Source: Thuidium tamariscinum
Taxonomy: Eukaryota > Streptophyta > Bryopsida > Hypnales > Thuidiaceae
NCBI GenBank assembly: GCA_947034885.2
Contig: OX344753.2
Span: 27,606,347-27,670,346, forward strand
Length of the DNA: 64,000 bases
Reading direction: 5' to 3'
Shown: positions 1,681 to 48,099 of the stretch, one piece after another
How positions within the stretch are numbered: the stretch's first letter is position 1
How the letters are laid out: each line of letters begins with the position of its first letter
Position numbers and translations under genes: made by a program
The notes under the pieces: model-generated
Database searches by the model: none
What the model saw: the letters and a program-made list of their open reading frames with translations, nothing else
Told to the model about the DNA's origin: nothing

Positions 1681-1836
1681 CCGTGCTCGCACAAGTTATT
1701 GATACATTCATTCTCCATCGAGGCTCTTTGTCTTGCATCCTTCATTGGCTGCATGCATTAACTTCGGGTTGAATAATTACATCTTTCTTCATTCATCCAC
1801 GTTTCCTTATTGGTGTTTTGAACACCAACTTATCTC

Positions 1837-23026: not shown

Positions 23027-23090
23027 CTGATCAGGCAGTAGGAACAAAGATGGATTTTAGCACAATCCGAATACATATAAAGACCTTCTT

Positions 23091-24134: not shown

Positions 24135-24158
24135 AACATCATATTCATTAATTTGGGA
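24135..24158 (+). repeat. Left terminal inverted repeat of the giant element
   Basis: 24 bp, exact reverse complement of 48,076-48,099. Its inner end forms part of a further small palindrome: TTTGGGAG at 24,152-24,159 pairs with CTCCCAAA about 9 bases on. Confidence 0.92.
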
Positions 24159-24530
24159 GATTTGGAACCTCCCAAAATAATGTTGCCCATTTTGAAGTAG
24201 CAAAAATTAAATACAACTTCATTTAATTGAAGTCGAAAAAGTCTTCATTTTTTAGGAGGAAATTGTACTTTTAATTGGAAAGACTATTCCAAGCTAAAGA
24301 AGAGCAAGTTGCGTCTCTATTGCCCAACGAGAATGAAGAATCTGTTTAGGCGTGCTGTACATTTGAAGTAATGTTAGTATAGGTAGCAAGTTCTATCCTT
24401 ACCAGTGCTTCTTGAAGGTGTAGAATATATGATACAAACTTGTAGCTCATAACTAAATAGCAGTCTATAATTATTAATATATGTATAACTTGGATTGTTG
24501 ATCACCCCATTGAATTAGGGTATATTGTGA

Positions 24531-24602
24531 GAAGTCAACACTTCTGAGATTGATAGTTGATTGTGAGATTGGAGGTTCGGGTTCGATTCCCGTTGACTTC
24601 CA
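24531..24602 (+). other. tRNA-like remnant
   Basis: About 71 bases with tRNA outline: a 7-bp acceptor stem (GAAGTCA with TGACTTC), a T-arm with loop TTCGATT closed by CGGG/CCCG, a perfect B box GGTTCGATTCC, and CA after the acceptor. The D-arm is weak and no credible anticodon stem forms, so it is more likely a decayed tRNA, a tRNA-derived SINE head or chance than a working tRNA. Confidence 0.3.
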
Positions 24603-25218
24603 TCTTCTGAAGCCGTGGGCACTATCCTGATAATGAGCTATAGTTTAGAATAGTGCAGCTTTCATTCATACGAATTTTTAGTATTTTTTGTTATATTGAA
24701 TAAGTTTATTCATGGATTACATAGAAAGGATGTTCTACAAATAGAGATGATGTTGATAATGATTATTTTTTATATATGAAGTGCAAATTGTGTCCTTCAT
24801 TAAATATTAAGTCATTAAATGAAGCGTTGATTGAGAGGCAATTGTTTTCAAAGTTGTTATAAATTTGAAGAAAATAAATTGTGAAATAATAAAAAAAGGA
24901 AATATTTCACTTCTATACACTATAGAAGTAAACGTGTAATGCAATAGAAAATATATTAAATACCAAGTGTAAATACATTTGCTCTGCAAAGTACTTTACA
25001 CAATACAAAATACTAATTTCAATACAAATCTATAAAATAAAATCTTAACACTCCAATCAAAACAATACTATCTATATTATAACACACCAAATTCTATGAA
25101 TCCTATAGTTATTCAAATACTTGATCCTAAAGCAAAATCAAGCAATCAAATATCAAATAGAAACTATCCAAAGCCGGTTCATATGCTATGTAGTATTTCT
25201 GTAGTATCCTGTAGAAAC
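24603..25218. other. AT-rich spacer inside the giant element
   Basis: AT-rich DNA between the tRNA-like remnant and the 3' end of the DUF7869 gene. No coding signal or strong repeat seen. Confidence 0.5.
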
Positions 25219-28200
25219 TCAATCTGAATTGTATGAAGTCAAACTACCATTGATGACTTCAACTTGATTGGATGGGATCTTAAGGACACATTCTATTGTG
25301 TCCTTCTTCACCCTAGACTTCCACGCTGTCACAAGAGAATTAGTGTTTTCCCAAACAGGATTTTGGGTCTCATCTACTTTCCAACGTAGTCCTTTCGTGG
25401 AGTCCCATCCATGATAGAAATCTTGAACATTTCTCTCTCGAGATGTAGGCCGAAAGTACTGAATCAATACACAATTAGGGTGATCAGCATTAGCAAAAGG
25501 ATCAGACAAGGCCCTCGCAATCCATATTGGCTTCAAATCTCCATCAGCTGGTCGAACAGCAACAAAATATCCTTCGTAAAGATCACGTGCTACACGAAAA
25601 GATGGCAATGGGCGGTTACGAAGGTTTCCCACGAAAACTTCATCCTCAGCAAACTCCTCACGAACTTCACCATCATCATCAAGTTCGTCTTCTTCTGTAG
25701 TTTCTACTCGAGTAGTAGGCCAAAAACCATCCGTTAATGCTGCAGATGGTTCAATTGGCTCCTTCAAGGTTGCATTCACCGCTCGCCAATAGAACACCAA
25801 ATGCTCAAAGCGTCTTCTATATTCTCCACTTCCGTCTTCATTGCATAATGTCTCCTAGTACTTAATGAACCCAGATAAACCCTTGTAAATGTCATCCAAG
25901 CTCCTCATTGGAAGGTGTACAACAGGGTTTGGCTCTCCTCGAGGCCATAGACTCCGCCCTTCAGAATCCTCACGCCACAATTTGATCCCCTCTTCCGGGA
26001 GCCAATCATTATCTGTGCAATAGAACTTATACTTCATAATTGGAACGCCTAGAGCATTGAGGTAGAACTTGAATTGTTGAGCCTTTGTATGTCCAACAAG
26101 CACATCATCCCCTCCACACAAAGAGTCTTCAATGAAGGCTTTAAAGTCGGGCACCTCCTCGATGAGATGAGGAATTGTGGGCACCGAATCCACATCCATG
26201 AATGACTTCATGAGGGATGGAATAGTAGGAAAATTTTCCTTCTTCAACTGCATACTCCACCTCCCAAACAAAGCGTCAATGTCATCATGAGTGTGACCAA
26301 CCAACATGAAACTTACATAAACTTCCCGAAAAATTTTCTTCGCAACAAGAAGGGACCAAAATGCAAATACAAATCTGTTCTTGTTGTCTCCCGTTGCATT
26401 GTCCATTTGAACATTCAGAACTGGTGGGAGGGAAGTTCCAGCAACTGGAACTTCAGGCGCTGGCCGAAGTGAAGATTTGCAAATGTCTGATCCTTGAAGA
26501 ATCGCACGAAAAAGAGGAGCATTGCCAGATCCAACGAACAATTCCCGTGACGAGTACTTTGGAGGAAGTTCAAGATCCCGTAGAAGTTTTGCAAAGGATC
26601 CCACTGTATAGTTTGAATCATGAAGAAAGATATCAAGACCATAATGTGCATAACGCACATCACCATGTCCATGTGCAATCATACCTATCACAGAAATAGG
26701 AAGCTTCATAAGCCCGTCAAGTTGCTTGCTCTTATGCGAGAAGACTGGGGAGGCCGTCTTTGCATGATCCATTTTGTCATGCATGATCGTCAGACATTCA
26801 TGAGGATAGGCGCTCGATCTATACCGATTGGCATAATATTGGTCACGATGTGCACGAGCTGTAGCCAAATGCTTCTCCAAGAGATGCGTCCATTTGCGTT
26901 GCAAGCCAGTACAAGCTCCCCTTCTCAAAGTCTGCAATCTATCACATTTAGCGCAACGTGCAAAATTATCCCCGGGCTTTTTTGCATTGTATTGAGGGAA
27001 GTTCAACTTCCTAATCTTGCTGATATTCAAAGCCGACACTTCCTTCAATCCAAAAACAGCATTCGCTGCATTAACTTGTGGGATAGTCTCTTTCCACGTA
27101 AAATTGGCTGGCAAGACCATAGACACTACCTTCTCTCCAGAAGGTAAAGTGTGTGTGCGATGAGGCATGTGGTCAGCAGACTTCTCTAACATGGACTTAA
27201 GTGTAGCTGTAGCTTGCAACGTATGATTTCGAGTCTTTAGCATGCCCAAATTACCGTGTGATTGAGCTTGCTCACCTTTGTTAGCATATCCTTGAAAACG
27301 ATGGAATGTGCTCTCTGAAACCCCCGAGATATGCCTCCATGCTGCCATACACACATCGATTTCGTCGATGGTAACTACCCTCTTCCCTTGAGCATCCCGA
27401 TGCACTTGTCGATGAACATCTAATTTCATGTGGTACCGGAATTCGAATGATGTCTTATGGTACATCCGCTCACGGAAAGCCTGAATTTTGGCTCTTGGAA
27501 AAGGTTGGACACAATTGCTTGAGCAGCAGACCTTCGACGATACTGCATTGATTGACTCCTCAGTGAGAAGGCTTTTTGCCTTCACACAAGTTTGAAGAGG
27601 TGGATTCCTCACCAGACTTGTATATGGTCTCCCACGTGCAGATGACGGCCGCAAGAGGTTAGCTTGCTGACAGTTGTATTTGAAACGGACCTCATGATCG
27701 TGAAGGCTTGCTCCATCCAAATACACTTGCTCTATGGGCCATGCACGAAGAGAGTACTTCCATTCATCAGGAACATCTCTAGTATCTATAGACTTTGAGA
27801 TTTGAACAGCCACAGAAGAATCACCTATGGGTCCATTGCAACCAAGGACTAGGTCGGAATTCACGCTGTGACAGATTCCCTCGACAACAAGGAGACCGTG
27901 GTTATTGTATAAAGTGACAACCTTAGTCATCCAAAGCAGTCGTGGGATACCTTCACATTTTGGGATGTCAACAATCGTCTCAACGATGTTCTCACGATCC
28001 CCTTCATCAGAGGAATAGCCATGAGATAGAACCCCACCTGCCTCCATGATCACTGCACATAAAGGACAAATTATGGTTACTCAATTATGCCCAAAAGAAA
28101 CTCTGTAGAGTGAGTCATGTCATTCAACTCGACTCGAGTTGAATGACTTTTGAAATGAAAGTATTTCTTGCATTAACAAACGAGTCATATTCTTATATGA

Positions 28201-29716
28201 TAGTCACCTCACTATTGATAATAAAATAGTGATCACATCGTGTTCCACATCGACTAAGATTGTGAAGTACCACATGCGTCTACTGAACTCAATCTAAACT
28301 CAGCTCAACTGTTAATCAGAACGTTCTGAAGAAGTATCCCAGATACCTAACAACAATCTTATTAATCAGAAGCAGTTCTCGGAAAACGTAGACAAGTACA
28401 TACTTATAGAAATCAAACTTTTTTGAGACGTAAATTATAGTCAAACAATGATAAATGCAATTCGAAAAAACATAAACAAAACATGGTATTCATTTCTGGA
28501 AACTCAGATATAAGATCATCTATACAATCACTGAAAACGAATGCAACTAACTCAGAATTCCTATTGCCATATTCCCAGGATTGTACATTCGAGTCGAATG
28601 GAGTTGAATGTACATTATTGGTAGCCAAGAACTATTGACCAGAATTCCAGCTTACGATACCCATTACTCACTTTAAACGGATGCAACTAACTCAGAATTC
28701 CTAATGTCATATTCCCCGGATTGTACATTCAAGTCGAATGGAGTTGAATGTACATTATTGGTAGCCAAGAACTATTGACCAACAATCCCACTTACTATCT
28801 CAATACTCAGATTTCCAAATTATGAAGAGTGTGAAATCCAGAATCGGAAGTATCAAAGGCTGTTTTTCAGGTCAAATGGAGTTAAATACACATGCTTTGT
28901 ATATGTGTTATGAACGGAGTCACTAGGAAAATCCAGAAACACGTCTACTATATTGGAAGTATATTTCATGGACTGTAATGACTGTTGGACTGTACATTCA
29001 AGTAGAGTCGAGTTGAATATACACCTATCCTAAACTCATGAAGGATGTACGTAATTGGGTCTAACTCAGGTGTCGAATTAGCTCACTAAACTTCTGTTTA
29101 TCTTATATAAGTAGTGATGAATAAATTAATCGCATCTCAAATCCTCGTCATTTCAACTCGAGTCGAGTTGAATTGCAATCACAGCATGCGATGATATCAC
29201 TTCAGTTTCTCATTAATAAACTTAAATCCAGTTCAGTTTCAGCATGACCACTGCTGCAGCAAGGCATTGTAAGTAATGTTAATGTCGAGTCCCGGAAAAT
29301 ACGGCGGCATTTACGGGTTATACATTTTCTTATGCAAATTCTATAAAATGCGTCCGAAATGATTATGATGGCTGAGTTTCGCCCGAGAAGAAGTCAGTAT
29401 CGACAGATTACTCGAGAACTGCATCAAATTCCTATACACATCACTGACATTGAATACCAAGAAATCAGAACAATAGTCACAAAATGTGCGCACAGTTCAA
29501 AGTACTGTCATTCTATCAAACAGAACTTCGGAACATACCAAAAGTGTGTACACCGTGTAAGATGAGAGCCACTCTTGCAACCTCTGTTGCTGAAACAGAA
29601 ATAACTGCACGATGAACTACAAGATCGAACCCAAAAACGCACTCTGCACAATCTCTAACACCATACAACAAGAGTAACAACGCAGTCTTCGGAGCGACAA
29701 CATCAAGCTCAAACAT
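25219..29716 (-). CDS. DUF7869-type gene (candidate transposase), copy 1
   Basis: Exon 1 is 29,539-29,716 (ATG at 29,716; donor GTATGT). Exon 2 is 25,219-28,052 (acceptor TGTGCAG). The phases agree and join TTT-G to TG-ATC. Exon 2 is open for 732 codons, then a TAG at 25,855-25,857, then open again for 212 more codons to TGA at 25,219. Copy 2 reads through the same place with Trp (GYIQHWTDIAQEDG versus GFIKY-stop-ETLCNEDG). Seen: Cys clusters (VCCSSNC; ARCAKC), AAWRHISGVSESTFHRFQGY, DHMPH, IMHDKMDHAKT, then QMDNATGDNKNRF and VGHTHDDIDALFGRWS near exon-2 residues 550-595. Known: these last motifs mark the DUF7869 family, which is scattered in many eukaryotes and looks nuclease-like. Inferred: it mobilises the 24-kb element. 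The TAG may simply shorten the C-terminus. Confidence 0.75.
28119..29172. repeat. Palindrome cluster in the DUF7869 intron
   Basis: Five copies of one palindrome family. At 28,119-28,147 the arms are 14 bp each (GTCATTCAACTCGA, centre C). At 28,582-28,614 and 28,722-28,754 the outer arms TGTACATTC / GAATGTACA are intact with a decayed core. 28,991-29,023 is partial. At 29,152-29,172 the arms are TTCAACTCGA / TCGAGTTGAA, centre G. All lie in the 1,486-bp intron 28,053-29,538. Confidence 0.9.
28541..28800. repeat. 140-bp tandem duplication
   Basis: ATGCAACTAACTCAGAATTC begins at 28,541 and again at 28,681. Each unit carries one palindrome and the phrase ACATTATTGGTAGCCAAGAA. A few differences separate the units, including one in the palindrome arm. 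Confidence 0.9.
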
Positions 29717-29776
29717 TGAAAATGAACAGACGAGCTTCGTTTGGGAGAAGGTCTATGGTCAGAACGCGGAGAATCC

Positions 29777-29815
29777 TGGCGCGAGGAATCTTGGCGCGAG
29801 GAATCATGGCGGGAG
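29777..29815 (-). promoter_or_regulatory. Tandem GGCGCGAGGAATC promoter motif
   Basis: Two and a half direct repeats of TGGCGCGAGGAATC with a 15-bp period, followed by GGCGGGAGTTTCAAACGGGA. They sit 60-130 bp upstream of the minus-strand ATG at 29,716. TTGGCGCG and GGCGGGA resemble E2F sites, which would link expression to S phase. That link is inference. Confidence 0.4.
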
Positions 29816-30529
29816 TTTCAAACGGGAATTTACTATAGCATTGTCAACAATAAGATTCTCTCGTTTTCAGGGATTTCTAATTAATGCGCATACTTTTCTT
29901 TCATTCGATTCTAGACTTCAATGGGGGAATTTTCTATTTGTGAAAGTAGTTGGGAGCTCATCGCTACCATCCCTACTTGGATTTTCAGGCCCTCTTTTGG
30001 AGGAATGACTTTTGAGAAAAGTAGGAATGTTCCGACGTTTTTTTAAGTATTCAGTGTACTGTAAAGTATCCAAAGCCCTATAATAAGTGGTTTAGGAGGA
30101 AACCTATATCTACAACAACAACAGCCTTTACGTATTTTACGTTTTGATTTTTCAAAGATTTCTAAATAGTAGTAAAGATCAGTGACCAAACAATTTGCTC
30201 ACACGAACAGGCTTTTCAGTTTGGCAACGCATTAATATATTTAAGGAAGACGGTATATTGAACCGAAGTTTTAATTTTGGAATTTTTTTCCTTTTTCTTT
30301 AGACCCAAATTTGTAGATGCACTGAACCTTATTTGAATTCACTGACATCACTTTATTAGCACTCGGTAGGAACAGCTCTCGTGGGGATGATGGGCGCGCT
30401 GAATTATACCTTTTTAACCCCCCTTGAAATTTTTTCTTTTTCGCATTTTTTCTTTTTTTTTCAAATTCAGAATTAAGATTCGAAATCAAAGACCCAAAAT
30501 TAGCTTTGGAGACTCCAAACATACCCATA

Positions 30530-31181
30530 CAGTCAAACCTCGATAAGTGTTAAAACTCTATATGTGTTATGGAGTTTTTTGCTCCCTTCAAATTAAGACT
30601 AGTAATTGTTATGTGTTAAGTGTTACGCAATGTCGCGCTCCTGACTTTGTTAATTTTACCTCGGTAAGTGATAAGTTTCCAAAAAAAGGCTTTTTGTAAG
30701 AGCCATTGCTTAGAAGGAGATAATTTTGAGGTAAAGTAATAGTTTCTAGTTGCAAAGTCACTCTAGATGTCCGTTCTAAAACTATAAAGTAGAAGAGGTT
30801 GTAGGCTTTCAAGATGTAGGTAGTGCTCTTCAAACTTTGAAAAAGTTTTTGGAGCAAAGAACTAATGACACCATGTTATCTATTAGGAATATTGAAGCAC
30901 TAGAAAAGGAAGTAGAATCTTGGCATGTAGTAGAAACTTGCCAAAGTACTATTGATTCATTCTTTCGACGGACTTAGATGAATAATGAATCAATATTTTA
31001 TAATTTCATCCATTTTTTTCTATAAATATTACATATTTACCTTTTTTATTCTTCTAAGTATTATTTTTTATAAGTGTTATAAATCATCGGCATCACTCTC
31101 TATAAGTGTTATGTGTTACTAGTGTCGAAGTGTTAGCTAAAAGTATGCTCCCAACCCCTAACACTTATCGAGGTTTGATTG
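30530..31181 (+). mobile_element. pogo/Tigger-like (Tc1-mariner) non-autonomous element
   Basis: The 23-bp inverted ends start CAGTCAAACCTCGATAAGTG and differ by one base. They are flanked by TA on both sides (30,528-30,529; 31,182-31,183), the expected Tc1-mariner target. At 652 bp it is an internally deleted copy nested in the giant element. It keeps the last part of a transposase frame. Confidence 0.85.
30780..30977 (+). pseudogene. Remnant of pogo-like transposase C-terminus
   Basis: An open frame of about 65 codons ending in TAG at 30,975. It contains DVGSALQTLKKFLEQ and a final CQSTIDSFF. An ending of the type QxTIxxFF after a charged helix is usual at the C-terminus of pogo/Tigger-type transposases. 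The DDE domain and DNA-binding part are gone. Confidence 0.6.
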
Positions 31182-32439: not shown

Positions 32440-35310
32440 GAAAAAATGGCATTGTAACCATCATTTATTTCAAAATTAAAACTAGTGAAGTCATAATCAC
32501 TCAATTCAAATAAGTATTCAATTTGGAGTGTCCTAAGACTTGAAAACTTCTACCTATTTTTTGGCCTTGTATTGACGTGAAATTAATGACATCGGGGGCA
32601 TTTTGATTTCGAATTAGAAATGGTAGTGCGGTCTATTTTCTTCTTTCTCAATTGAAATTGTTCAATTAGCGATCATTTGATTCAAATTAGTGTTCAATTT
32701 AGAGTGCCCTAACACTTCATAACTTTCACCTTTATTTTTTGGCACCCTTGGACATGGAATTTATGACATTGGAGGCATTTTGATTTCCATAAAAAAAATG
32801 GCAGTGTGGTCTATTTTTTTTCCTAAATTAAAATTAATCAATTAGCGGTTAGTTAATTCAAATTAGTGTTGAATGTAGAGTTCCCTAAGACTTTGAAACT
32901 TTCACCTAATTCTTTTGGCTTTTATTGACGTGAAATTCATGACATTAGAAGGATTTTGATTTCCATAGAAAAATGGCAGTGCGGTCTATTTCCTTTTTTC
33001 TCAATTGAAATTGATACATTAGCGGGGATTTCATTCAAAGTAGTGTTCAATTTAGAGTGTCCTAAAACTTTGTAGCTTTCGCCTACTCTTCTAGCACTGT
33101 TGGAGGTGAAATTCATGACATTGGACGGATTTTGACTTCCATAGAGAAAATGGCATTGTAGTCTATTCTTTTTCTCTCAATTGAAATTGGTCAATTAGTA
33201 GACATTTAATTCCAATTGGTGTTCAAATAAGACTGTCCTACATCTCTAGAACTTTCAACTATTTATCTTGACACCCTTTGAAATGAAATTCAAATCATTG
33301 GAGGCATTTTGATTTCCATAGATAAATAACGGGAGCCCTGTATTTAAACAAAAAAAAAATTGAAATTGGTGAATTAGCGGACATTTGATTCAAATTAGTG
33401 TTGGATTTAGGGTGTCCTAGGACTTTAGAACTTTCACCTATTTTTTTTTGTTTTTATTGACGTGAAATTCATGACATTCTTGGCATTTTGATTTCCATGG
33501 AGAAAATGGCAGTGTAGTCGATTTATTCTATTCAAATTGAAATTGGTCAATTAGAGGGCATTTGATTCAAACTAGTGTTGGATTTAGGGTGCCCTAGGAC
33601 TTTAGAACTTTCACCTATTTTTTTTTGTTTTTATTGACGTGAAATTCATGACATTCGTGGCATTTTGATTTCCATGGAGAAAATGGCAGTGTAGTGGATT
33701 TATTCTATTCAAATTGAACTTGGTGAATTAGAGGGCATTTGATTCAAACTAGTGTTGGATTTAGGGTGTCCTAGGACTTTAGAACTTTCACCTATTTTTT
33801 TTTGTTTTTATTGACGTGAAATTCATGACATTCGTGGCATTTTGATTTCCATGGAGAAAATGGCAGTGTAGTCGATTTATTTTGTTCAAATTGAAATTGG
33901 TCAATTAGAGGGCATTTGATTCAAACTAGTGTTGGATTTAGGGTGTCCTAGGACTTTAGAACTTTCACCTATTTTTTTTTGTTTTTATTGACGTGAAATT
34001 CATGACATTCTTGGCATTTTGATTTCCATGGAGAAAATGGCAGTGTAGTGGATTTATTCTATTCAAATTGAACTTGGTGAATTAGAGGGCATTTGATTCA
34101 AACTAGTGTTGGATTTAGGGTGTCCTAGGACTTTAGAACTTTCACCTATTTTTTTTTGTTTTTATTGACGTGAAATTCATGACATTCTTGGCATTTTGAT
34201 TTCCATGGAGAAAATGGCAGTGTAGTCGATTTATTCTATTCAAATTGAAATTGGTCAATTAGAGGGCATTTGATTCAAACTAGTGTTGGATTTAGGGTGC
34301 CCTAGGACTTTAGAACTTTCACCTATTTTTTTTTGTTTTTATTGACGTGAAATTCATGACATTCGTGGCATTTTGATTTCCATGGAGAAAATGGCAGTGT
34401 AGTGGATTTATTCTATTCAAATTGAACTTGGTGAATTAGAGGGCATTTGATTCAAACTAGTGTTGGATTTAGGGTGTCCTAGGACTTTAGAACTTTCACC
34501 TATTTTTTTTTGTTTCTATTGACGTGAAATTCATGACATTCTTGGCATTTTGATTTCCATGGAGAAAATGGCAGTGTAGTCGATTTATTTTGTTCAAATT
34601 GAAATTGGTCAATTAGAGGTCATTTGATTCAAATTAGTGTTGGATTTAGGGTGTTCTAGGACTTTAGAACTTTCACCTATTTTGTTTTGTTTTTATTGAC
34701 GTGAAATTCATGACATTCGTGGCATTTTGATTTCCATGGAGAAAATGGCAGTGTAGTGGATTTATTCTATTCAAATTGAACTTGGTGAATTAGCGGACAT
34801 TTGATTCAAACTAGTGTTGGATTTAGGGTGTTCTAGGACTTTAGAACTTTCACCTATTTTTTTTTGTTTTTATTGACGTGAAATTCATGACATTCGTGGC
34901 ATTTTGATTTCCATAGAGAAAATGGCAGTGTAGTCGATTTATTTTGTTCAAATTGAAATTGGTCAATTAGAGGGCATTTGATTCAAATTAGTGTTGGATT
35001 TAGGGTGTTCTAGGACTTTAGAACTTTCACCTATTTTTTTTTTGTTTTTATTGACGTGAAATTCATGACATTCTTGGCATTTTGATTTCCATGGAGAAAA
35101 TGGCAGTTTAGTCGATTTATTCTATTCAAATTGAACTTGGTGAATTAGCGGACATTTGATTCAAACTAGTGTTGGATTTAGGGTGTCCTAGGACTTTAGA
35201 ACTTTCACCTATTTCTTTTTGTTTTTATTGACGTGAAATTCGTGACATTCGTGGCATTTTGATTTCCATGGAGAAAATGGCAGTGTAGTCGATTTATTCT
35301 ATTCCAATTT
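32440..35310 (+). repeat. 177-bp satellite array with dimeric higher-order repeat
   Basis: TTTAGAACTT recurs at 33424, 33601, 33778, 33955, 34132, 34309, 34486, 34663, 34840, 35017 and 35195, a strict 177-bp period. Units alternate between type A (TAGTCGATTTATT with GAAATTGGTC) and type B (TAGTGGATTTATT with GAACTTGGTG), giving a 354-bp dimer. To the left (32,440-33,400) about five units of the same family are clearly more diverged. It ends abruptly near 35,310. A ~177-bp unit is in the size range of plant centromeric or knob satellites. Confidence 0.95.
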
Positions 35311-36059: not shown

Positions 36060-38100
36060 GTACGTGGCGTGAATTCCAATTTGGCATTATAAATACATAT
36101 GAGTGGGAGTGTCGTACGCGCAGTCTAGCAGAAAGCACCTTTATCACACCCAAACGTGATAATATGACACGGAATATCGTCCCAGGAGATTCCAGACGTT
36201 ACTAATAGTTGCGTTTCCCGGTTTCTAGGTTTCTCGGATCAAAACACCCCAAGTTATTACTCTTAATCCGGAATACCAACTTATCTTCCAGACTCTTTTT
36301 CAGGATCCGTCTTTTCTTTCCGAATCCGTCTCTCAACTATGACCGGATTCCTTTCTCAGATCCGGATTTCTCCTTCACCCGGATCCGTCTCAATTCGGAA
36401 TCCGGTTCCGTCACTCAATAATTGGTTTTTGATACCCCTGTTTTACCCTCAGGGAGTCCTCTCTTGATCTTTAGAGGGGTAGGGACTTACCACTCGTACA
36501 CCTCACACTCTCTTCTCTCAAACAAAACACATGAAAACACCAAAATATATCCGATGTTGTATTAGGGCCGGATTCGGATCCTCACAACTTCCCGGATAGC
36601 TCTAGGCCAATCCGGTTAGCAAGTCACTCAGGACTACTTCACTTGCCCTTACTACAACGACAGATTCGAAAACCCCTAGACCCGAAAGGACGTATTTTCC
36701 TAGTTCTTCGGATCGACTCAGTGGTTGGCAGGCCTTCCGATGGACGGAACTTTCCTATGGCGGCTGCTTAACTCCGCACGGATCCGCCCCTGCGGTTCTG
36801 GAACCTCCTCCTCGTCACTCCTGGACTCACACTGGATCACCGTTCCGGTGAATTAAAGGCTCCACGCTCAAACTCACGATTCAAGATCCTAACTCTCGGA
36901 AGTTGGTCACTCAGTTCGGATTTCAAGTGCCTCAGAATCCGGATTCCTCCTCACCCTTCCCTCTTGCCTCTCAACACTTCAATGAACACACCAAGAAGAG
37001 ACTCAAACACAAGTCAGAGCTAGAATGTCCATCCGCCGGCTCAAATTAAAGAAGGGAATGAAAATACAATAGAATATGCACTAGGAGGGAATGACAGGCC
37101 AACTAACTTGCCTGCCCCTTAAAAGCTCAATACAAAATCAAAGTCAACGCCCTAACAAGCCAAAAAGGCACCACAGAAATCAGGGCAACCAATCAGCGAA
37201 CACCCCAAGATATCCGGAATGGTCACAACCAGCTATCCCTAAAAATCCGGATCCCCTAAAAATCTGGAACTCCTATAAATCCGGAATCCGGATCCGCATT
37301 CGGAAAATCGGATTCAGATTCTAGAAATAAAATTTAACTAAGTGGAAATAGCCTTTAGCTACCTCTCCCAATGCACCATCTTCAAACTGCTCCCACTTTG
37401 ACTCCCTGGTGTCTTCACAAAAGCCTTCATGAACTAGAGTAGTCTTGATTGCCGCTTGGGTTCAAATCTCCCATTCCGGGTCCATTTCGGATCCATTCCG
37501 GGTCCATTTCGGATCCATTCCGGATCCAATCCGGATCCATTCCGGATCCGGATCGTCAATATTTACGGAACATTTCTGTTCCTAAATATTTCCAGATCCA
37601 GTGCCGATAGTACCAAAATACTTTTGGACTACTATCTGGGTTCTGGTTTCCGGTAAGGACAAAGAATGTAATCTTCCTCCTTAACCATTTTGTCTCAATA
37701 AAGAGACCCTATGGTTTACTAATCCATATCTAAAACATTCACAGTCGGAAGTCCTAAATTTCTGGGATCCCTAAATTTCCGGAATTCCTAAATTTCCGGA
37801 ATCCGTAACTTTCCGAAATCCGTAATTTTACGGAATTCTTAAATTTCCGGAATCCTAAATTTTCGGATCCCTAGAAATCCGGATCCGGATTCTTTCCGGA
37901 TTGTTTTCGGATTGTTTCTGGATTTTCCGGAATATGGATCATAGTTTCCGGAATTTCGAGTTTAGGAACCCCTTAAACAATAAAATGCTCTAATTTGTCC
38001 TACTCCTATGTTTAAGCTTCAAAAAAAATCAAAGAATCGGATTATTCTAGCAAGATATAATATAACACTATATTTTGGACATTTTCGGATTGCGACAGGG
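36060..38100. repeat. TCCGGA-rich repeat region
   Basis: Dense in GGATCC, ATCCGGA and TTCCGGAAT, with runs such as CATTCCGGGTCCATTTCGGA (37,470-37,560) and CTAAATTTCCGGAAT units (37,750-37,930). It is relatively GC-rich against its surroundings. Short frames (36,209-36,421; 37,456-37,656) are Ser/Pro/Arg strings caused by the repeat. It may be a nested LTR-like element; ends not identified. Confidence 0.55.
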
Positions 38101-40458
38101 AGGTAAATTTTGCTTACTTCAATGTATCAACTCTATTCATTCAAGAGGTGGGTACTTTTCATGATTCTAAATGACTATTTCTTTTTTACTTGAATAATTT
38201 ATAACTAATTCCTAGAAGCTCCAATAACAATGGATTATATGCCTACTTCATTTGTATTTGAAAACAAATTTACTGGAAACTATTTGAGATCATTTACTTC
38301 TCTACAATTTAGTGTCCACCATGACATGGTTGGTTTATGGACCTCCTATCTTACATGGAATGAATTACAATATAGAGACATGTTGATTTATGAGTATAGG
38401 TCCTCTTCTATTCAATGTACCTTTTTTAAAAGTAGTTCACGGCTTCAGGTGCCTCTTTCCACGGTTGTAGGCTCCTCGTGAACACGGTTACAGGATCTTC
38501 TCTCTCGCTGAGAAAGTTGCCCGCCGCCTTTTTCGGGGCGTTTTGTGGCAATCGTGTTTTCTCGCCTTGTCGATGTTTTCAATCGCCGCGCCTTTTGCTG
38601 TCGCCGCGCTTCTTGCCGTCTTCAACATCTTCGTTTCCTGAGAGGGTTCCGTGTTCATCCAAACAAAAGTTTTCCCCCGATTGTTTGGGGTGCTGCTGCC
38701 GCTGCATCTGAAAATCCTTTGTCTCCTTCAACCATAAGTGAGAGAGTGTTTAGGATCTCAGACCTTCATTTCTGGGCTTTGCGTTTACATTGTTGGCGCT
38801 TGCGGTTCGGGCTGGCAAACCGATTTGAAGAGCATTTCAAGTTTGGTTCTCCTTTTCGCGGTTTTGGGTTGGTCGACTGTTTCTTCTTCACGCGCAACAT
38901 TTTAGTGGGGCGATTTTCAGCTCCTCCTTGTCCTCTCATTCACCAGGTATTCTCCCCATCTGTGTTGATTTGTGTTGTTGTTTGTTCTGGCACATTCTAG
39001 TGGTTAGGGTTCTTGGGCCGGCCTGGCATTGCGAGGCCACATTTCAGGGTTCGGGGATTTTCTTTTTGCTCATTTGTTACTCAGATACTATGAGTTGGGC
39101 CGAATTGGGTAGGTCGGATTCTAGGGTGCAAGGTTTTCTTTTTGGTGGTTCGTGCAAATTTGCGAGGCCAGAATCTAGGGTGCATTCGGCCAAACCTGCT
39201 TCGCTAGACATCAGGGTGCAGGGTGTTTTTTTTGTTGCTCATTTGGCGCTTAGATCCTGTGAGTTCGGCCAGCTTGCAAGGCCGGATTTCCAGGGTGTAG
39301 GGTTTTCGGGGTTGAACACCAAATGCTTGAATTTGTGAGGGTTTGCAATCAATGAAGATTCCTGGTGAGCAACGGAATTACCCTTCAGCAGGATCCTCAT
39401 TGATGTTTCCGTTGAAGCATAGCAATAATTTTACAGAGGCGTAGGTTTGGTATGCGGAGACTCCCAGTTCGTAGCACTTCTAAGTAGCGAGTGTATGGAT
39501 ACTAGTGTCGGCTTTGGATTAACGGATAGTACATCCGCATTGTTACAGGTTTTGTTGTTGTCATGTTAGAAACAACCTTCTTTATTCAAAAATAGCCTTC
39601 TCCATTCACTTGTTGCTTTCACAAACAGCTTTCTTTACTCAATTCTCGCTCATGCAGGCACAAGCACAAGCAAAGCGTGGCGGGATTCCTGGCGGTGCAT
39701 TGTGTGAAGTCTTTTTTTGGCAGGTATATTACTTTCCGCATTTGCACACTCCGGTCACTCAATGTGATTCCCTTCTTCTTCCTCGTCTTACATGAGGAAT
39801 TCTCACCAATTTGGCAGGCATAGAATCTTAGTTTATGGCTGTGTTATGACCAAGGTCTGAGCAGTATGTATTAGCAACCAATGCACATTCAACTCGATCA
39901 ATGTCCATTCAACTCGAGAAATGTAAATTCAACTCGACCGTAGTCCCTTAAACACAAATTTTGAGAACCTTAACCTGTAGCTGATAATCAGGTGCTTGCA
40001 CTTCAACTCGATTCGAGTTGAAATGCGGCCACTAAATACCCACACAAAAACTTCAGAAACTGAAAACGTAACCATATTGCACTTCAACTCGATTCGAGTT
40101 GAAGAGAGTAAATGCAATATCAACTCGACTCGAGTTGAAGAGACAGAATACAGTAAAAGGTAAAACGATCATAGACACCCGAGTTACACAGCCGATCCAA
40201 CGCCGAAATCCGAGAAACTAGATTCCTATCAAAAGGAAGAAAGTCATACAAAGATGAATTTGCTCGGACAGTTCAACTCGAATCGAGTTGAATCACCAGA
40301 AACAAACTGTCGAAAACTAAATCTCCGTCTACAAATTCGAGAAAGAAACATATAAAACCTAATAGCCCGAAACAAAAACAAGAATGCTCATTCAACTCCA
40401 ATCGAGTTGAATTGTAGGAAATGCTAGAATCAAGAGTGTTCTAACATATGTTTTCCAG
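38101..40458 (+). other. 5' region of the ParB/methyltransferase-like gene 2
   Basis: Between the repeat and the first supported coding exon. 38,450-39,000 is GC-richer and may be leader sequence. 39,010-39,330 holds about three decayed ~100-bp units (GCGAGGCC, TAGGGTGCA, TTTTCTTTTTG). A CAG followed by GTATAT at 39,721-39,728 is donor-like and TTTTCCAG at 40,451-40,458 is a good acceptor, so a 5'-UTR intron containing the palindromes is plausible. No domain was recognised in the ORFs here. Confidence 0.4.
39887..40411. repeat. Palindrome cluster upstream of gene 2
   Basis: Three half-sites (ATTCAACTCGA) spaced exactly 20 bp near 39,887-39,938, then full palindromes at 40,002-40,022 (centre T), 40,083-40,103 (centre T), 40,120-40,138 (9-bp arms, centre C), 40,272-40,292 (centre A) and 40,391-40,411 (one mismatch). 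Arms are TTCAACTCGA / TCGAGTTGAA. Confidence 0.95.
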
Positions 40459-41913
40459 GAATGGAGGAGCAAGTGAAGAAACTCCAGGCGCTTTACCAAA
40501 GATATACGATTCCAGAGGATGAGAAGGAGGAACTTGGTGATGAAGAAACGTTAGGGGATTGTTGGACATGGCTGGAACCACAGAACGTGGAATACTGGAC
40601 CATAATTCTTGTCCCCATGACAAACCATCTGGCTTTCAGGACCAAATTCAAGGGCTCCTCAGCAACTCTTCCGGTCTCCCTCACAGAATCCATAACTGAG
40701 TTTACCATCTCAATGGACGGTTTGATATTTGTGTCATGCGAGACTCTAGATCCGGACCAGTCTATGCCATACCTGTTCTCATATGTCGTGGATGCGAAGA
40801 AAACAGTCTTCAGTATAGCCGAGTATTGTCGGAGCCTTGTGAATATTGACTATGAGACTCTGAACAAGAACATTCAGATTCACATTGACGAGAAGCGGTG
40901 GGAAGGAAAGGATGGAAAGACGCTTTTGCCACAAGCACTTCTATCAAGGCTCAATCAACTCAAACTGGGGTTCGAGAGGCTGCACTTCAAGCTCGCATAG
41001 AAGAACAGAGACATGAAGCCTCTCTCCATTGGAAGAGACTACACGAGTCAGGGTGCTAGTCAGAGCTCGTTAGCCATGGGGACTCCGGAGACAGGGAAGA
41101 GCCAGACGAAGAAGAAGAAGACTGACAAGTTCAGTAGGGGTGACCCATCTATAACACCAAGCCCCCTCGCGAAGAAGGGAGCAAAAAAGGCCGCGGCATC
41201 CTTGGAACAGTCAATCATCATTGATGAAAGCATGGTGTCAGAGGTCACTAACATCTCGAAGGACTTGGGTGGGGATGTTAAGGAAATCGACTACGAAGAA
41301 TCTTGCAAGACGTATGAGGAGTATTGGGCGGAGTGCACCGACTCTTATGTCCCTGGGATTGGACATAAATTCATCATCCCCATATCGCAGTTATAGACTC
41401 CACCTGACAACTTGAACATTCGCGGCCTAGAGGAGGTTGGGGTGAAGAAATGCTTGAACTTTCTCCTCAACATGCCAGACCCCGACAAGAAAATGACACT
41501 GTGTGTCATGCCAGTTGGATTGGACAGTAAGCCTGAGTCCTTCGAGGAGGTGAGCAAGGGGAAATTCTACATGGTCAATGGACAGCATACGGTTGAGGCA
41601 TCACGGAGGATGTAGACCATGCCAAGAATAAAGTTGAAGGCGGAGAAATTTGCATAGTGGGAGTGTTTCATCGTCTGGAACAAAGACGATCACATCATTC
41701 GTAAGATTTCCGCCTACTACAACCGGGTGAACCACTTTCAGAATTTCATGCCAACATGGTCCACCAACATCATTGGAGCTCGCAAAGTGTGGGAGATGAT
41801 GGGCTGCCCTCCACCGGATAAGGAAGCAACAGAGTTGGGCAAAGTCATTGAGAAGCCTAGGCGAACAATAGCAGAAGCCCAGAACAAGAAGAAATTCCAT
41901 GTAAGTTTTACAC

Positions 41914-41934
41914 TTCAACTCGATGCGAGTTGAA
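41914..41934. repeat. Palindrome in intron 1 of gene 2
   Basis: TTCAACTCG and CGAGTTGAA around ATG, 13 bases into the intron. Confidence 0.9.
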
Positions 41935-43450
41935 ATGCTTGTTTCCGATGTCCGTTTTGTACTTGGGTGGAAGTTGAATGTTCTCTGATTCATAAAAACA
42001 AATTCTCCAACTGACATGGAAGCACTACTTGTAGGATTTCGTTGCAGCTGCCAAGCTTCGGTTCGCCATGATTGATGTCAAGAAGAACTAAGGCAAGATT
42101 AGCAAGAACAAGGAGAAGGAGGTGGACATCCACAACGAGTTGAAGATTATCACGGCGTCGAAGCCTGTTTATGATCTGTGGAGCGAACTGATCTCCTGCC
42201 AATCTCAAGGCGAGCTTGTTGACCCCGATTCCCTCTTGAAGTATAGACAGCTTCCTAATTGGGATCAAGAGAAAGATGGGGTTATGCCGCGTGAGTTCTT
42301 CAAATGGCTAGGAAACTGTTCCGAGGGTGATCTGAAGAGGTTAGCTTTGCATCTTCTAAGTAGAACACCCAATCGAAAGCTCCTGCATCCGAAGGTGACG
42401 ATGAAGAAGGTCTCAGGGGTTCTAGCCGACTGCTATACTGCCAAGGAATGGCTTGAGAGGTGCAAGAGGAAGCAGATAATTAGGAGGCAACTTCATTTCC
42501 TCAAGAAGAACCTCAACTTGTTCAGCAATGAAGGCAACTATCGAAAGGACAAGTGGAAGCAGTTCAAGAAGACCTACAATGTCACGAAAGCCACGAAGAA
42601 CACTCTTCTGACCGGTCCACCTGAGGAGTTCTTCTCTCTCGCGAAGATGCTCTCTAACAAGAACAAGAGTATCAGCGAGCTCTCCCCTAATGCTGCTGAA
42701 TTCTTCCGCATCTTCCTTGGAAGCAAAGGGAAGTTCAGCAAGCCCGAAGCTACCGGGTCCTATAGACCGTATGATATGGAGACAGATGACTTCGGGGAAT
42801 GGGATGGTGGTGTTTGGGAGGATTCGATGTCATCAAAATTGAAGCTAGCTGTTATGGACTTCCGTCATGTTCCAGGGGTCATCAACAAAGGCTCCTCAAA
42901 GGAAGGCGAGTCCTACTTCGAAGGCTTCTTAGATGGCTTGAAGAAACTCAAGGGATTCCAGACGGTGGATCCACAAGTGTGGTTGTGGATTTGTGGGGAT
43001 GCGGATATGGAGCTTGATATTCGCCAGTACATTCATACCTCGATCTACGGGGAATCCTACCTTCTTCACTATGCCGATTACATCCCTTCGCTCTTCGAGA
43101 GAATTGGAGACCTGCCTGAGCGGACATCAAAAGCGAAGGAGTCTATCAAGCTAATTTTCTTGATCAAGAAGGGGGTGAAGGTAGCAGTGAAGAAACTACC
43201 GAGGAGCTTTGAGGCGTCAATTGACGGAAGATATTCGAAGTCCAAGTCGAGCAACGATGTTGAATACAAGCTCTATAATATAGAGTTGAGGATGGATTTC
43301 TACTTGCAAGTTCTCAGTTTGTTTGCTGCTCGTAGCGATCCAGTTCTCTCAGTTTTTGGTGGTGGGAAGATCATCTGTGCTGCCTGGGTATGTTTATACA
43401 TTTCACTAACTTTTTCCCTAATGTACATTTCCACTGTGTTGAGATGGTGC

Positions 43451-43471
43451 TTCAACTCGACTCGAGTTGAA
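43451..43471. repeat. Palindrome in intron 2 of gene 2
   Basis: Perfect 10-bp arms (TTCAACTCGA / TCGAGTTGAA), centre C, in the 205-bp intron. A decayed copy follows near 43,528-43,549. Confidence 0.95.
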
Positions 43472-44720
43472 ATTACATTCTCTTGATGTTTGTATCTTCT
43501 GTGTTGGCATACGCATGAATGCTGAATTCGAACTTGATGCATGTTGAATAGAAACGTGAAGACTGAATGCAATGTTTTAAATTTCATTGCAGATGCTCTC
43601 CCTCAAGCATTTTGTAATGGGGAACTCCAAATACAAAGAGAACTTCACATCCCTTGCGCTGACATCTGAGAATTTGGATAAAAATGACTTCCTCGACACC
43701 AGTTACCGAGTGGATTCAGGGAAGTTTTCGAGGAGAGCATCCAAGGATTCCTCAAGCTTTGGAAAGGGGAAGCAGCCAATGACACCGGAAGAGGAAGCTA
43801 GACACGATGCTTCTCAGAGTCAGACTCAAGTGAACCTTGCAGACGATGATGAAGATGAAGAAGACGACGAAGAGGAGGAAGACAAAGATGGAGTTGACGA
43901 GGGCACGCAGGTTGAGGACAACGTACCTGATCCCGAGCCGCTGACAGAGCCTGCAACAGATGTTACGGAGAACACTGATGTTGCACATGAAGCCGGGGCA
44001 TCATCTGTCGTTGTGGAAGCGGCCGAGGTGCGGGATTCAACAGACGCATCATCCCATCCAGTTGTCACACCAATGGCACCTCCTGCACAACGGACTCCAA
44101 GTTCCGCTGCTTGTCCAACGAAGAAGCGGAAGAGGCAAGCGAAGGAATCCAAAATGTCGGACAAGGAGTGGCTGATGGAGTTGATCAAGGCCAACAAGGA
44201 GGAGAATGATCGATCTCGGGCTGAGATGAGAGAAGAGAATGAGCGGGCAAGAGCCGAGAATAGCAAACTCATCAAGGAACTTGTACGTGACATGCCAGGG
44301 ATGATAGCAGGCTATCTTGGAGGTAGGCCCCTTCAGGCGATTGAACCCGCCAGTTACTCAGTGCCCTTGATGATTGCCAATGAGGCATATACCTCAACGG
44401 ACAGCTCCAAGCGATTGAAGTCTGGAGGTTCGAATCCTTCAGAGATGCAGTTACTGAAGCCATCTCCAACGTCAAGTGTGCAACCATCGCCGCCGCCGCC
44501 CACATGTCCTCTGCCTTCTTCAGTATGTGCAGAAGAGGAGGAGGAGGAGTCTACTCTAAATCCTGTTGGCGATACCCTTGAAGTGCAGGGTGATGACATC
44601 GTTATAGAGGAGGAGAAGGTAGATGATGGAAGTTCAGCGGAAGGGGATGAGACAGAGCAGTCACAGGACCCTGCGACTGATAACTCTCCAGGTTGTTCCT
44701 CGTGACTCTCTTAGCCTCAT

Positions 44721-44741
44721 TTCAACTCGAATCGAGTTGAA
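44721..44741. repeat. Palindrome after the stop of gene 2
   Basis: Perfect 10-bp arms, centre A, 16 bases past the TGA and so probably in the 3' untranslated region. Confidence 0.95.
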
Positions 44742-44870
44742 TCCCTTCCGCTGCTTTCACTATCTAATAGCTAGTATAGGCTGGTAGATCGGAGCTTGTG
44801 GGTATACATTTTGTATAAAATTTCTCCTCTTGAGAATATGTAATATACCATTTTTCTTACAAATGATATT

Positions 44871-47266
44871 GTGTGTTTAATTGCATCAGCCGCAGGTACA
44901 CTTCATGTTGATACCGATGTTCCACAAGAGTCGTTGGCTCCAATTCAGTGTCCACTTCCATGTATTGATCATGGTAATGACACAGAAGAAGTTTCTCTTT
45001 GGAATGCATCAGTCGTAGTCGTCGATGTCACCTCTCTTCCTTCACCTGAGATGAATAAGGTTGAAAGCCTTGTTCATAGTTTAAAGGAGTTTGAGGTTGT
45101 TAACGATCTAGTGGACGATGCTCTTGTGGAATTTAAGATTCCACCTTCTGAGGGTCCCGTTCAAGCATGTGTATCTCCTCCCTCACATGAGGTGGCCAAT
45201 GTTGTGAGTTTCTTCTTTACCCTCTCTGCATTGTATCAGTCTTGTTTTAATGTTTTTATCTTTCATTTTGATCCACTCTGTTCAATGGGGTAGATAGTCC
45301 TTTAATACTCAAAATGACACAGACAGTGCAACAATTTAACTGTCTCGCCATTTTGGTGTAAATTCTCAGCAGGATAGAGGAGAGGCAGAGGACAGTGTCT
45401 TCTTCCCATGCACATCTGGGGTGACCAAGAAATGGCTTAATGTCATTCTAGGTTTGCATGGGCTATTGTGCGTATGTGAGGATAAGAGGTATCTTATTCA
45501 TGAAAGACGATACAGTGATACCTACAATGTTCCTCCAAACATATAACACCTTTCTATTGGCTTCAAGCGGATCACTATTAGGCCCCATCTTCAAGAAGTG
45601 TTGAAAGGGTTGTCCGAAATTGCGAATGTATCAGTGTGGTCTTCTATGAAAAGGAAGCATGCTTTAGTTATCACGAAAAACTTGTTTAGAGGCATAGAGC
45701 CTCCTCTCAATATTTTCGGAGAAGAACAATGCAATGTGGTCAAGTGTAGAGACGGACGCGGTAATTTTTACAACTACAAGGTGAACGGAACAGAAGTGGA
45801 CTTACTTTTGAAACCTTTGGACAAGTTAGTGGAGTTGGAGAACTCGATTTTTTCTTTTCAGAATACAATAATTGTTGACGTCAATCCAGCAAGGCACGTT
45901 ACCAACTATCCAAGTAATGTCGTTTTGTTTGAACCTTGGTCACATGAAGGAGACAAGAACGCAGATGGAATCCTTATTGATCACCTTCTTCCATGGATTC
46001 AACGTCTGCACATTGCAAGGCCACATTCGCTATATGCTTACCGCCTAGACAACATATTTGGTCGTTGGTCTCTTTTTGAAGAAACTGACAAAAGAAAGTA
46101 CAGTGATATAGCCGAAGCAATTGAAAGGAGCAATACAATTTACGATGAGTGGAAAAAAAGCGGTTTAGAAAAACAACATTTTTTCAAGGACTTGCATAGA
46201 GGAATCCATGCTATGGACAAAGTTGAAAGGGTCTTTATGCTCTTCCGTCAAAAGCCACAAGATACTAGAACGGCGGATTTAATAGGGCCCTAGGATCTTC
46301 CATGCCCTCTTGTATGTTTTGCGGATTCATATTTTATATGCATTTGCATGCATTCATTATGTGTAATGTCAAATACTTTGTGAGCATTAGACTATACCAA
46401 TTTGTAATATATCAATGTAGACGTTTGATGTTTTTGACAATCTTTACTGGTTTCCAGGGTGTGCGTGCTAATTCAGTTCTTGGAAATGAGTGTGAGAACA
46501 AGTGCACTGCCTCTGCTGATTCATTCTCTAACTATGGACAGTTTGCTATTTCGCAAAGTGGATTGGGGCATATCATGTATTCGGCAGCCACAGCGCAATC
46601 CACTATGGATTTCTCCATCATGTCTGTGGACGATGGTGTTGTAGATAGTCCTCCTAATAGTGCGAAGCGCCCAAGTTCTATCAGCTCTCCTTCTCCTTTG
46701 AAATGTCGTGAGCGGTCATCCTCTCCTTTTGAGCGCTCTACATTGAATGGCACGACTCAAAGAAAGTTATACGTTGATGAAGTGCTTGTGGAGCCTGTGA
46801 TGAAGGTTTGAACCTTTTTCATTTAGAATTCTTTTATTTGAAATCATCATTTGTTTTGAAGAATTGTTTGTTTCATTTTAAGATTTTGACATCCTCTTGT
46901 ATCTTCTATTAGCAGGTTCTTAATGGATCTACCATGTCCATGCCCATTCCTATCACTGCATTCAGTAAATTAGTGCCGAACGAATGTTGTGATGAACAAT
47001 TGAGGACTACTTCAAGTGGCTTTCCTCCTCTTCCACCTAAATGCACTTCTTCAGCACCAGTTCGGCCGCAAAAATGTAAAACACATCATGGGGAGCTTCG
47101 TCTTCATTCCATTGAAGGTTCTTGGAATGCATGGGAGCAAAGGTCTTTGAAGAAGCAAGTCCGTGAAAGTGTGTGCCAAAAAACAGGAAGCTATATTGGA
47201 TATAGTCGAGGTCCTGAGATATTGAAGGCAATGGAAAAATTGAAGAATAGATCATACTCGCAATAG
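44871..47266 (+). pseudogene. FCP1/NIF-type phosphatase-like gene
   Basis: Exons: about 44,890-45,203 (start unclear, probably an acceptor after GCCGCAG), 45,373-46,311, 46,458-46,805 and 46,916-47,266, all phase 0. In-frame TAA at 45,544 and TAG at 46,291, each fitting Gln, and no frameshift. The second exon follows the FCP1 homology plan: WLNVILGLHGLLC where DLDGTL or DLNGLL is usual, ISVWSS-like VSVWSSMKRKHALVI, then NTIIVDVNPARHVTNYPSNV, LFEPWSHEGDKNADG and LLPWIQRL. Known: this HAD-fold family dephosphorylates the RNA polymerase II tail and other proteins. The first nucleophile Asp reads Gly here, so activity is doubtful. Later exons are Ser/Pro-rich with no known domain. It follows gene 2 in the same direction by about 170 bp inside the giant element. 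Confidence 0.65.
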
Positions 47267-48075
47267 TCCTTGGGACTCGGACTAGTTTTCCTAGGCATGT
47301 AGTTATATTGAGCTGTTTTCATATTAGGCTCATGTAGAGCTAAGACTCTTTTTTACAATGTATATGATAATTCTATTGTAAAGCACTATAGCTACCCCAG
47401 CAAAGTAGTTGATGTTCAGAAATTGTAAAATGGACATCCAGACTATTGCATGTAAGCTTGTAGTTATTACAAGCCGGGTAGGTAAAGTTCCTTATCTCTA
47501 TTGATTGTCTTAGTCTTTCATTTAGAAGCTTGGGGATACAAGGTCATGGTGTTTGAAAATGGTAGTGGATGATGATCTTTGATGTAACTGTGAGAACAAA
47601 AGTTATAGAAAAAAACCCGTCCATGCGTCGCTGTAAGCATTTTCATAAACGGCATTCTCAATGTCAACATTTGGAATGTGGTTTGTGCTAATGCTCAGTG
47701 GCGCATGGATGTTTTTGTTTCTATAATTTTTGTACTTACATCTATGTCAAAGGTCATCATCCACTAGATTTCTTCAATCACAATGGCTTCGTTTTCTCAA
47801 GCAATCTACTTGGAGATCTAACACAATTGGTGGAGATGAGGGACTTTGCTACTAGGAGTGTAATGATGGGCATCGGGGATACAAAAGTTTGTTTATAGTG
47901 AATACATATACTACATGAGTGTTAAACTTCGCAAGAAATACATGGTATTTTGTAATTCTCCATTTATTTTTATCATTGTATATTATTGTTTCTAATTTTT
48001 TTAATTATGAACAAACAATTATTCTTACATTTATAAATTATAGTACTTTACAAAGCTCTCATTTCATTTGAAAAG
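47267..48075. other. Spacer at the right end of the giant element
   Basis: 3' flank of the FCP1-like gene, becoming AT-rich towards the right terminal repeat. An 67-codon frame at 47,698-47,898 has no recognisable domain. Confidence 0.5.
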
Positions 48076-48099
48076 TCCCAAATTAATGAATATGATGTT
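48076..48099 (-). repeat. Right terminal inverted repeat of the giant element
   Basis: Exact reverse complement of 24,135-24,158, followed at once by the ACCC target duplication (48,100-48,103). Confidence 0.92.

Follow-up and report, generated by a model that had tools for sequence, protein, structure and literature searches.

The 64,000-nucleotide stretch of Thuidium tamariscinum DNA analysed here (contig OX344753.2, positions 27,606,347 to 27,670,346, hereafter the window) raises the question of what kind of mobile element sits in it, which of the element's several genes moves it, and what the short palindromes scattered through its non-coding DNA are for. A first-pass annotation, made from the sequence alone, had described a 24-kb terminal inverted repeat (TIR) transposon in which a DUF7869-type gene would encode the transposase, and a ParB/methyltransferase-like gene and an FCP1-like phosphatase gene would be accessory cargo. 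The element family is real and is a recently mobile DNA transposon of 20-26 kb. The reading that we favour goes further and holds that DUF7869 is the transposase, that the other genes belong to the element's core, and that the protein of the second gene would bind the element's own palindromes in an anti-silencing role like that of the VANC proteins; to this reading as a whole we would give a probability of about one half.

Ends, copies and mobility

The element occupies positions 24135..48099 of the window, a span of 23,965 bp, and is bounded as follows.

24131..24134, no strand: left target-site duplication ACCC, read directly
24135..24158, plus strand: left TIR, 24 bp and perfect, from comparison of the ends; genome matches start there
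48076..48099, minus strand: right TIR, 24 bp and perfect, from comparison of the ends; the right end recurs in the genome
48100..48103, no strand: right target-site duplication ACCC, read directly

The inverted-repeat similarity of the two ends falls abruptly to background beyond base 24, and units of a 128-bp tandem array lie on either side of the element (23091-24138 and 48100-48362). When the flanks are joined they read as an intact 128-bp unit such as that near 48230, a comparison made by eye. The perfect inverted ends, the 4-bp duplication, the restorable empty site and the general picture of a TIR transposon caught within a tandem array, all put forward in the first-pass annotation, thus stand. 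Its size of 24 kb holds for the span in the window, but that span includes an insert that the other copies lack.

36110..38097, no strand: nested insert of 1,988 bp with TG..CA ends, resembling a solo long terminal repeat, with a 5-bp duplication GGGAG

This is missing from all five other full-length copies that were fetched and is a later, nested insertion of the solo long terminal repeat type. About 700 bp of it (88% identical) directly adjoins another copy of the same family at C7:26.5M (L007).

The genome searched comprises 363 Mb in 19 contigs. This size and the inferred introns show a large eukaryotic genome. A 201-bp probe from the left end has at least 41 matches in it, from 127 candidates of which 40 were scored; 38 of the matches begin no more than two bases from the element's first base (24135), the remaining three being the window itself, one array unit and a match that starts 21 bases inside. 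The right-end probe also has at least 41 matches (40 of 48 candidates scored), with nine at 99% identity or above, the window included. Neither of the two outcomes that the annotation had named as refuting it came about, as other ends are found paired and facing each other at a spacing of 20.4-48.6 kb and the ends are not part of a longer unrelated repeat. The five further full-length copies of the window's family, here called family A, are 20,388-21,084 bp long and, the tandem array left aside, share 97.5-98.7% identity with the window copy over their long blocks.

Flanking sequence was read on both sides of 13 elements, and in 12 of these the element is set in unrelated flanks between perfect 4-bp duplications (ACCC, CAAT, TTGG, CCTG, TGAT, CTGG, TAAG, TTTC, GTAC, CAAG, TACT and CATT) that have no motif in common; the figure becomes 12 of 14 if one pair that was not accepted is counted. 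From 20 short end stretches, ten were joined into five accepted pairs and eight were single ends that do not enter the count, whilst L034/L035 (C11:8222867 and C11:8180829), with flanks CTAG/GTAG, was not accepted as one element. Inverted ends, a duplication of fixed length and copies in differing flanks are what is expected of a class II TIR transposon; a DDE/D transposase with an RNase H fold would be a further mark of the class.

One family-A copy, C5:28542764-28591331, spans 48.6 kb with its TAAG duplication intact and probably holds a large nested insertion. Judged by eye, C11 (17.5 Mb) has a large share of the old, stop-ridden copies of all the element's genes, which makes it a repeat-rich and perhaps non-recombining chromosome.

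Three branches and their private palindromes

Besides family A, two further branches were read, family B (a copy of 26,435 bp, from C3:348525 on) and clade C (a copy of 23,468 bp, C2:8026827-8050294). The layout is common to all three: close to the left end lies a minus-strand DUF7869 gene, the middle is taken up by a tandem array, and beyond it come a three-exon gene, here the second gene, and a NIF-like gene, both on the plus strand. In the window copy, with the exon limits of the second gene placed by GT..AG and homology, the features are these.

25219..28080, minus strand: DUF7869 gene, its frame broken by TAG at 25855-25857 in the window copy
28123..29172, no strand: five palindromes clustered 5' of the DUF7869 gene, at 28123, 28588, 28728, 28997 and 29152
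32521..35309, no strand: 177-bp tandem array, 15.8 units in the window copy
40002..40411, no strand: five palindromes clustered 5' of the second gene, at 40002, 40083, 40119, 40272 and 40391
40461..41900, plus strand: second gene, exon 1, with an NGQH or ParB-like motif seen by eye; several stops in the window copy
41914..41934, no strand: palindrome in intron 1 of the second gene
42035..43387, plus strand: second gene, exon 2, with a stretch VFGGGK like methyltransferase motif I, seen by eye; GT..AG and homology
43451..43471, no strand: palindrome in intron 2 of the second gene
43593..44705, plus strand: second gene, exon 3, acidic and of low complexity; GT..AG and homology
44721..44741, no strand: palindrome just past the stop codon of the second gene
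45340..46293, plus strand: NIF/FCP1-like gene, main exon, with one stop in the window copy; flanking exons on both sides not fixed

Decay is evident in the window copy, whose DUF7869, second and NIF-like genes have at least one stop each, and the B and C copies read also contain stops. The mid-element array has a period of 176-178 bp in all three branches and runs to 6.8-10.9 units in the five other family-A copies. Its units align between A and B with a score of 172 (best of 60 shuffles, 29); one clade-C array aligns to A and B with scores of 46 and 51 (best shuffle 27), and the other reaches 78 against 28 with B and only ties its best shuffle (28) with A. A and B have the same 24 bases as their TIR, and the clade-C TIR matches at 22 of 22 compared bases at the left end and differs at 5 of 24 at the right. 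Identity to family A is 82% (B) and 64-65% (C) for the DUF7869 protein, 51-54% and 34-41% for the second-gene protein, and 51-53% and, by piece, 39-47% for the NIF-like protein.

Each branch has its own 21-bp palindrome; neither these sites nor the conserved array figured in the first-pass annotation. Six family-A copies each have 13 sites that depart from TTCAACTCGANTCGAGTTGAA by at most three mismatches; the family-B copy has 17 sites within four mismatches of TTCAAGTAGATACTACTTGAA, and 15 within three mismatches to a looser centre; and the clade-C copy has 18 sites of TTTAGGTCGANTCGACCTAAA in the 18,824 bp read, a stretch that excludes its DUF7869 gene and left end. With a second clade-C type, TTCAGCTCGANTCGAGCTGAA (L056 and L061), there are at least four versions in one genome, those of A and B and two in clade C. 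Scored at three mismatches, the A copy holds 13 sites of its own motif, one of B, none of the first clade-C motif and ten of the second; the B copy holds 15 of its own, two of A and none of either clade-C motif; and the clade-C copy holds 18 of the first clade-C motif, two of the second and none of A or B. The A and second clade-C motifs are similar and cross-match, with ten sites in the A copy and four the other way. Palindromes with permuted arms find a mean of 0 sites in A (200 trials), 0.035 in B (200) and 0.003 in C (300).

The positions of the palindromes agree between branches mostly, if not wholly. Given in the order A, B and C, there are 5, 4 and 6 sites before the DUF7869 gene, 5, 9 and 6 before the second gene, 1, 1 and 2 in its first intron, 1, 2 and 2 in its second and one in each branch after its stop codon, with one extra palindrome in clade C beyond the NIF exon. 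None of the 18 clade-C sites lies in an inferred exon, and the A and B sites are likewise outside the exons as placed. At all eight clade-C loci read (L048, L049, L054-L057, L060 and L061) the 5' DNA holds 2-6 palindromes; L058, an 87% relative, and L059, an old 83% copy, have degenerate ones only. The exact core of the A palindrome is found 95 times in the genome and that of clade C 233 times, the reversed control being found 0 times in each case. Of the sites listed first, 50 for each core, 48 (A) and 43 (C) have a DUF7869 or second-gene match no more than 25 kb away; this test used 48 of 89 exon-2 matches, and NIF-like matches adjoin some of the nine sites that it counted as not near.

Because the 21-bp site is symmetric, its reader would be expected to be a dimer. 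Families A and B have the same TIR and differ little in DUF7869, whereas both the palindrome and the second gene have diverged between them, which makes the product of the second gene the likeliest candidate. We propose an autonomous DNA transposon lineage that probably moves by cut and paste, in which DUF7869 would act on the short TIRs to leave 4-bp duplications, and a dimeric DNA-binding protein encoded by the element, most likely that of the second gene, would read the palindromes in the element's non-coding DNA. Spread over promoters and introns, this protein would keep the element's genes expressed against host silencing, and a palindrome and protein that change together would set the control of one family apart from that of the next. 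Keeping the element expressed would be the most likely role of the reader, a step suggested by the likeness to VANC alone.

An unlikely alternative, though the best placed, is that the palindromes are internal sites of the DUF7869 transposase itself, used for assembling a very long element when it is excised or for control of the transposase's own gene. A cluster does lie 5' of the DUF7869 gene in A, in B and at all eight clade-C loci read, and clade C has two sites 3' of that gene as well; however the palindromes differ between A and B despite an identical TIR and an 82% identical transposase, and most sites lie at or beyond the second gene (13 of 17 in B and 12 of 18 counted in C). It is quite improbable that the host reads the palindromes, as operators for one of its transcription factors, or that they are small repeats of host origin which have spread inside the element. 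Sites 5' of genes and in introns are where ordinary regulatory sites would be found, but there are only the 95 exact A cores in 363 Mb, with 48 of the 50 listed adjoining element genes, the sequence differs from family to family at mostly the same places, and no palindrome lies in the flanks within the window.

Long odds would have to be given for a partition or pairing system, in which a ParB-like clamp would load at parS-like palindromes and spread, so as to cluster or segregate copies. The first-pass annotation had called the second gene ParB/methyltransferase-like, and NGQH, invariant across the three branches by eye, is faintly reminiscent of ParB/DndB-type proteins, just as palindromes near the gene are of parS; there is a weak resemblance of the same kind between the VFGGGK stretch (VFAGGK or VFGGAK in other branches, with no DPPY, again by eye) and motif I of some DNA methyltransferases. 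Neither identity is upheld by profiles, as the gene's first two exons have no match at E 0.01, to ParB, to a methyltransferase or otherwise, in Pfam, PHROGs, NCBIfam or PDB, the best non-significant scores being an unrelated PHROG at 0.022 and two arginine methyltransferases among the PDB profiles at E 0.68 and 0.83. ParB was accordingly rejected as a firm name. There is furthermore no ATPase partner among the open reading frames (ORFs) scanned, and an integrated element needs no partition. A search of viral contigs returned no relatives of the second gene's first two exons.

The presumed transposase and a constant core of genes

On our preferred reading the element is moved by DUF7869, as the first-pass annotation had supposed, and this now appears likely. 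The protein of the window copy matches PF25273 with an E value of 4.9e-43, that of another copy scores 152 bits against a gathering score of 26, and the profile is above the Pfam cut-off at 150 of 150 scored loci (854 candidates). Three of the other five family-A copies fetched keep the frame open for 953 codons. The ratio of non-synonymous to synonymous change (dN/dS) between A and B is about 0.04-0.07, the N-terminal piece being near saturation. Acidic motifs (D..MD, DN..NKN and GHTHxDID) are common to DUF7869 proteins of two distant groups only 21-25% identical, and it is these that suggest that the protein cuts and joins at the TIRs, a role that is well supported if unproven. Viral contigs contained no relatives of it. 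It is very improbable that DUF7869 is a mere accessory and another gene the transposase. Whilst the structure model is of no use in deciding this, DUF7869 is the best conserved of the proteins (82 and 65%, against 51-54 and 34-41%), it is found at no fewer than 150 loci, and its conservation parallels that of the TIRs.

The NIF-like gene matches NIF (PF03031) in another copy with an E value of 3.4e-9 (37 bits against 21.8), so that the family assignment of the first-pass annotation is retained, but not the name of phosphatase. Active FCP1-like phosphatases have a catalytic DxDx(T/V), and here the DxD is missing, with GLHGLL in its place in family A, DLNGVL in B and DLNGIL in C; since GLHG or DLNG replaces DxDx, the protein is probably not a phosphatase. 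It might, more speculatively, work alongside the transcription machinery without any enzymatic activity.

The status of the second and NIF-like genes as cargo was not upheld, and the term was rejected, as the same genes in the same order and on the same strands are found in A, B and C and adjoin most of the 48 DUF7869 loci scored. Synonymous change between A and B is at least 1.1 per site or saturated, with dN of 0.41-0.44 in the first two exons of the second gene, 0.71-0.73 in the third and 0.38-0.40 in NIF; the dN being much lower, all of these genes have been long kept. Among recent A copies the second gene has ratios of 0.12-0.53 and NIF of 0.18-1.07, where defined, with few changes each. 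Linkage was scored at 48 loci, of 950 candidates with the family-A DUF7869 protein, against at least 89 matches to second-gene exon 2 (446 candidates) and at least 126 NIF-like matches (438 candidates). Among the matches listed, 40 of the 48 loci have a second-gene match no more than 45 kb away, with side and strand as expected, compared with two when the strand is the wrong one and 0.9 on average (maximum 3) over 200 random placements; a NIF-like match lies within 48 kb as expected at 38, with two on the wrong strand. These genes are thus shown to be a constant core, and not passengers, in three branches. That they are host cargo captured by chance is hardly credible, for although NIF domains are common in hosts, capture is known for MULEs and no NIF-like match is listed beside ten of the 48 loci, the gene set, order and strands are alike in three branches, dS is high or saturated where dN is much lower, and 40 and 38 of the loci are paired with the two genes. 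It follows that the second-gene and NIF-like matches in this genome are largely transposon genes, not host genes, at least where they are paired with a DUF7869 locus.

A number of observations weigh against the reading as a whole. A family-A copy on C3 has TTTT/ATTT instead of a perfect duplication. Among the recent A copies the dN/dS of DUF7869 is 0.68-1.35 on few changes, and no selection is visible. Structure predictions were too poor to be of use both for DUF7869 (10-row alignment, mean predicted local distance difference test score, pLDDT, 34.1) and for second-gene exon 2 (two rows, mean pLDDT 33.8). The two clade-C palindromes 3' of the DUF7869 gene, each one mismatch from the motif, outside the stretch counted and one also present at L048, have no counterpart in A or B, and the palindrome reader itself is proposed from the co-divergence of three branches. 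At the distances used and among the matches listed, the second gene is missing at eight of the 48 loci and the NIF-like gene at ten, and one partner, at C9:139980, serves two loci (one of them C9:113743), so that one of the two pairings is false. Furthermore none of 26 further, more distant DUF7869 loci has a NIF-like neighbour among the 126 matches listed; 12 others all have one. All 38 were picked by hand, the 12 because they looked NIF-paired and the 26 not for that reason. The core set, shown for the A-B-C lineage, may therefore be confined to a portion of the DUF7869 lineage.

Known systems and neighbouring loci

To our knowledge, sequence-specific anti-silencing by transposons has been worked out in detail mainly for the VANDALs. 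VANDAL elements have a MULE transposase and make target-site duplications of about 9 bp, whereas here there are DUF7869 and 4-bp duplications, and DUF7869 and NIF are the only Pfam matches above cut-off among the element ORFs scanned, with no MULE transposase among them. VANC21 is found on the non-coding stretches of VANDAL21; it recognises a motif of 9 bases in vitro and brings about a loss of methylation, and a related VANC has other families as its targets (PMC5735166). To judge by two Arabidopsis reports (PMC5735166, PMC10398659), the systems are alike in having family-specific short motifs in introns and in intergenic and terminal non-coding DNA, with targets that vary between related families. 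They would also be alike in the pairing of an element-encoded protein with a motif, the binding here being predicted. In contrast to the 9-base VANDAL motif, which often lies in tandem repeats, the palindrome here is 21 bp long and dispersed. We would tentatively suggest, at somewhat under even odds, a new superfamily that has arrived independently of VANDAL and with unrelated proteins at anti-silencing through self-recognition by a dimeric protein and a private 21-bp palindrome, both rewritten as the lineage splits to give families with like ends that are blind to one another. Parallel elements with at least four palindrome versions, some copies of which have open frames, would make recognition of self, relatives and host testable by binding assays.

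Sola elements (PMC3627910, PMC4455052) likewise have 4-bp duplications, short TIRs and a transposase near 900 amino acids (888 in one Sola2), and some have further genes. The duplications of Sola2, as so described, are AT-rich, unlike those found here (ACCC, CCTG and CTGG among them). Fungal Starships and other giant cargo transposons are similar in size and in having several genes, but differ from the present element in its constant gene set and in the lack of a recombinase match among the ORFs scanned. Other proteins of PF25273 are like the present one in that the domain lies far above cut-off; the Pfam entry is one without a function, and a likely function can now be offered for it. The name DUF7869 was not found in the literature searched, nor was a matching gene set, the search having covered mostly titles and abstracts and few subscription papers, without Repbase. 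The element may have been described earlier under another name, for example within Sola.

A minor feature of the element lies some 350-450 bp inside its left end.

24505..24610, plus strand: tRNA-like stretch with a box-B-like GGTTCGATTC

The stretch is kept in two family-A copies, one B copy and two clade-C copies (the window, L009, L044, L048 and L064), and ARAGORN calls no tRNA there.

Elsewhere in the window a second DUF7869 gene lies at 60560-63999 on the minus strand, split over several frames and extending beyond the end of the window. It matches PF25273 with E 6.4e-36, its main part has 46% identity to the first, and it represents another, more distant element beside the one studied. 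To the left of the 128-bp array, ORFs at 19531-23056 (minus strand) have a CDGNHRYAAW motif, weak DUF1015 (E 0.009) and DndB (E 0.14) scores and a methyltransferase-like stretch by eye, with no sequence similarity to the element's second gene. The array and this gene may belong to an older element that was hit by the one studied. A hAT transposase remnant is found at 2-1240 on the minus strand (Dimer_Tnp_hAT, E 3.4e-9), and ORFs at 1822-4308 (plus) and 10065-11582 (minus), with no Pfam match above cut-off in the parts scanned, have N-terminal stretches that are similar by eye.

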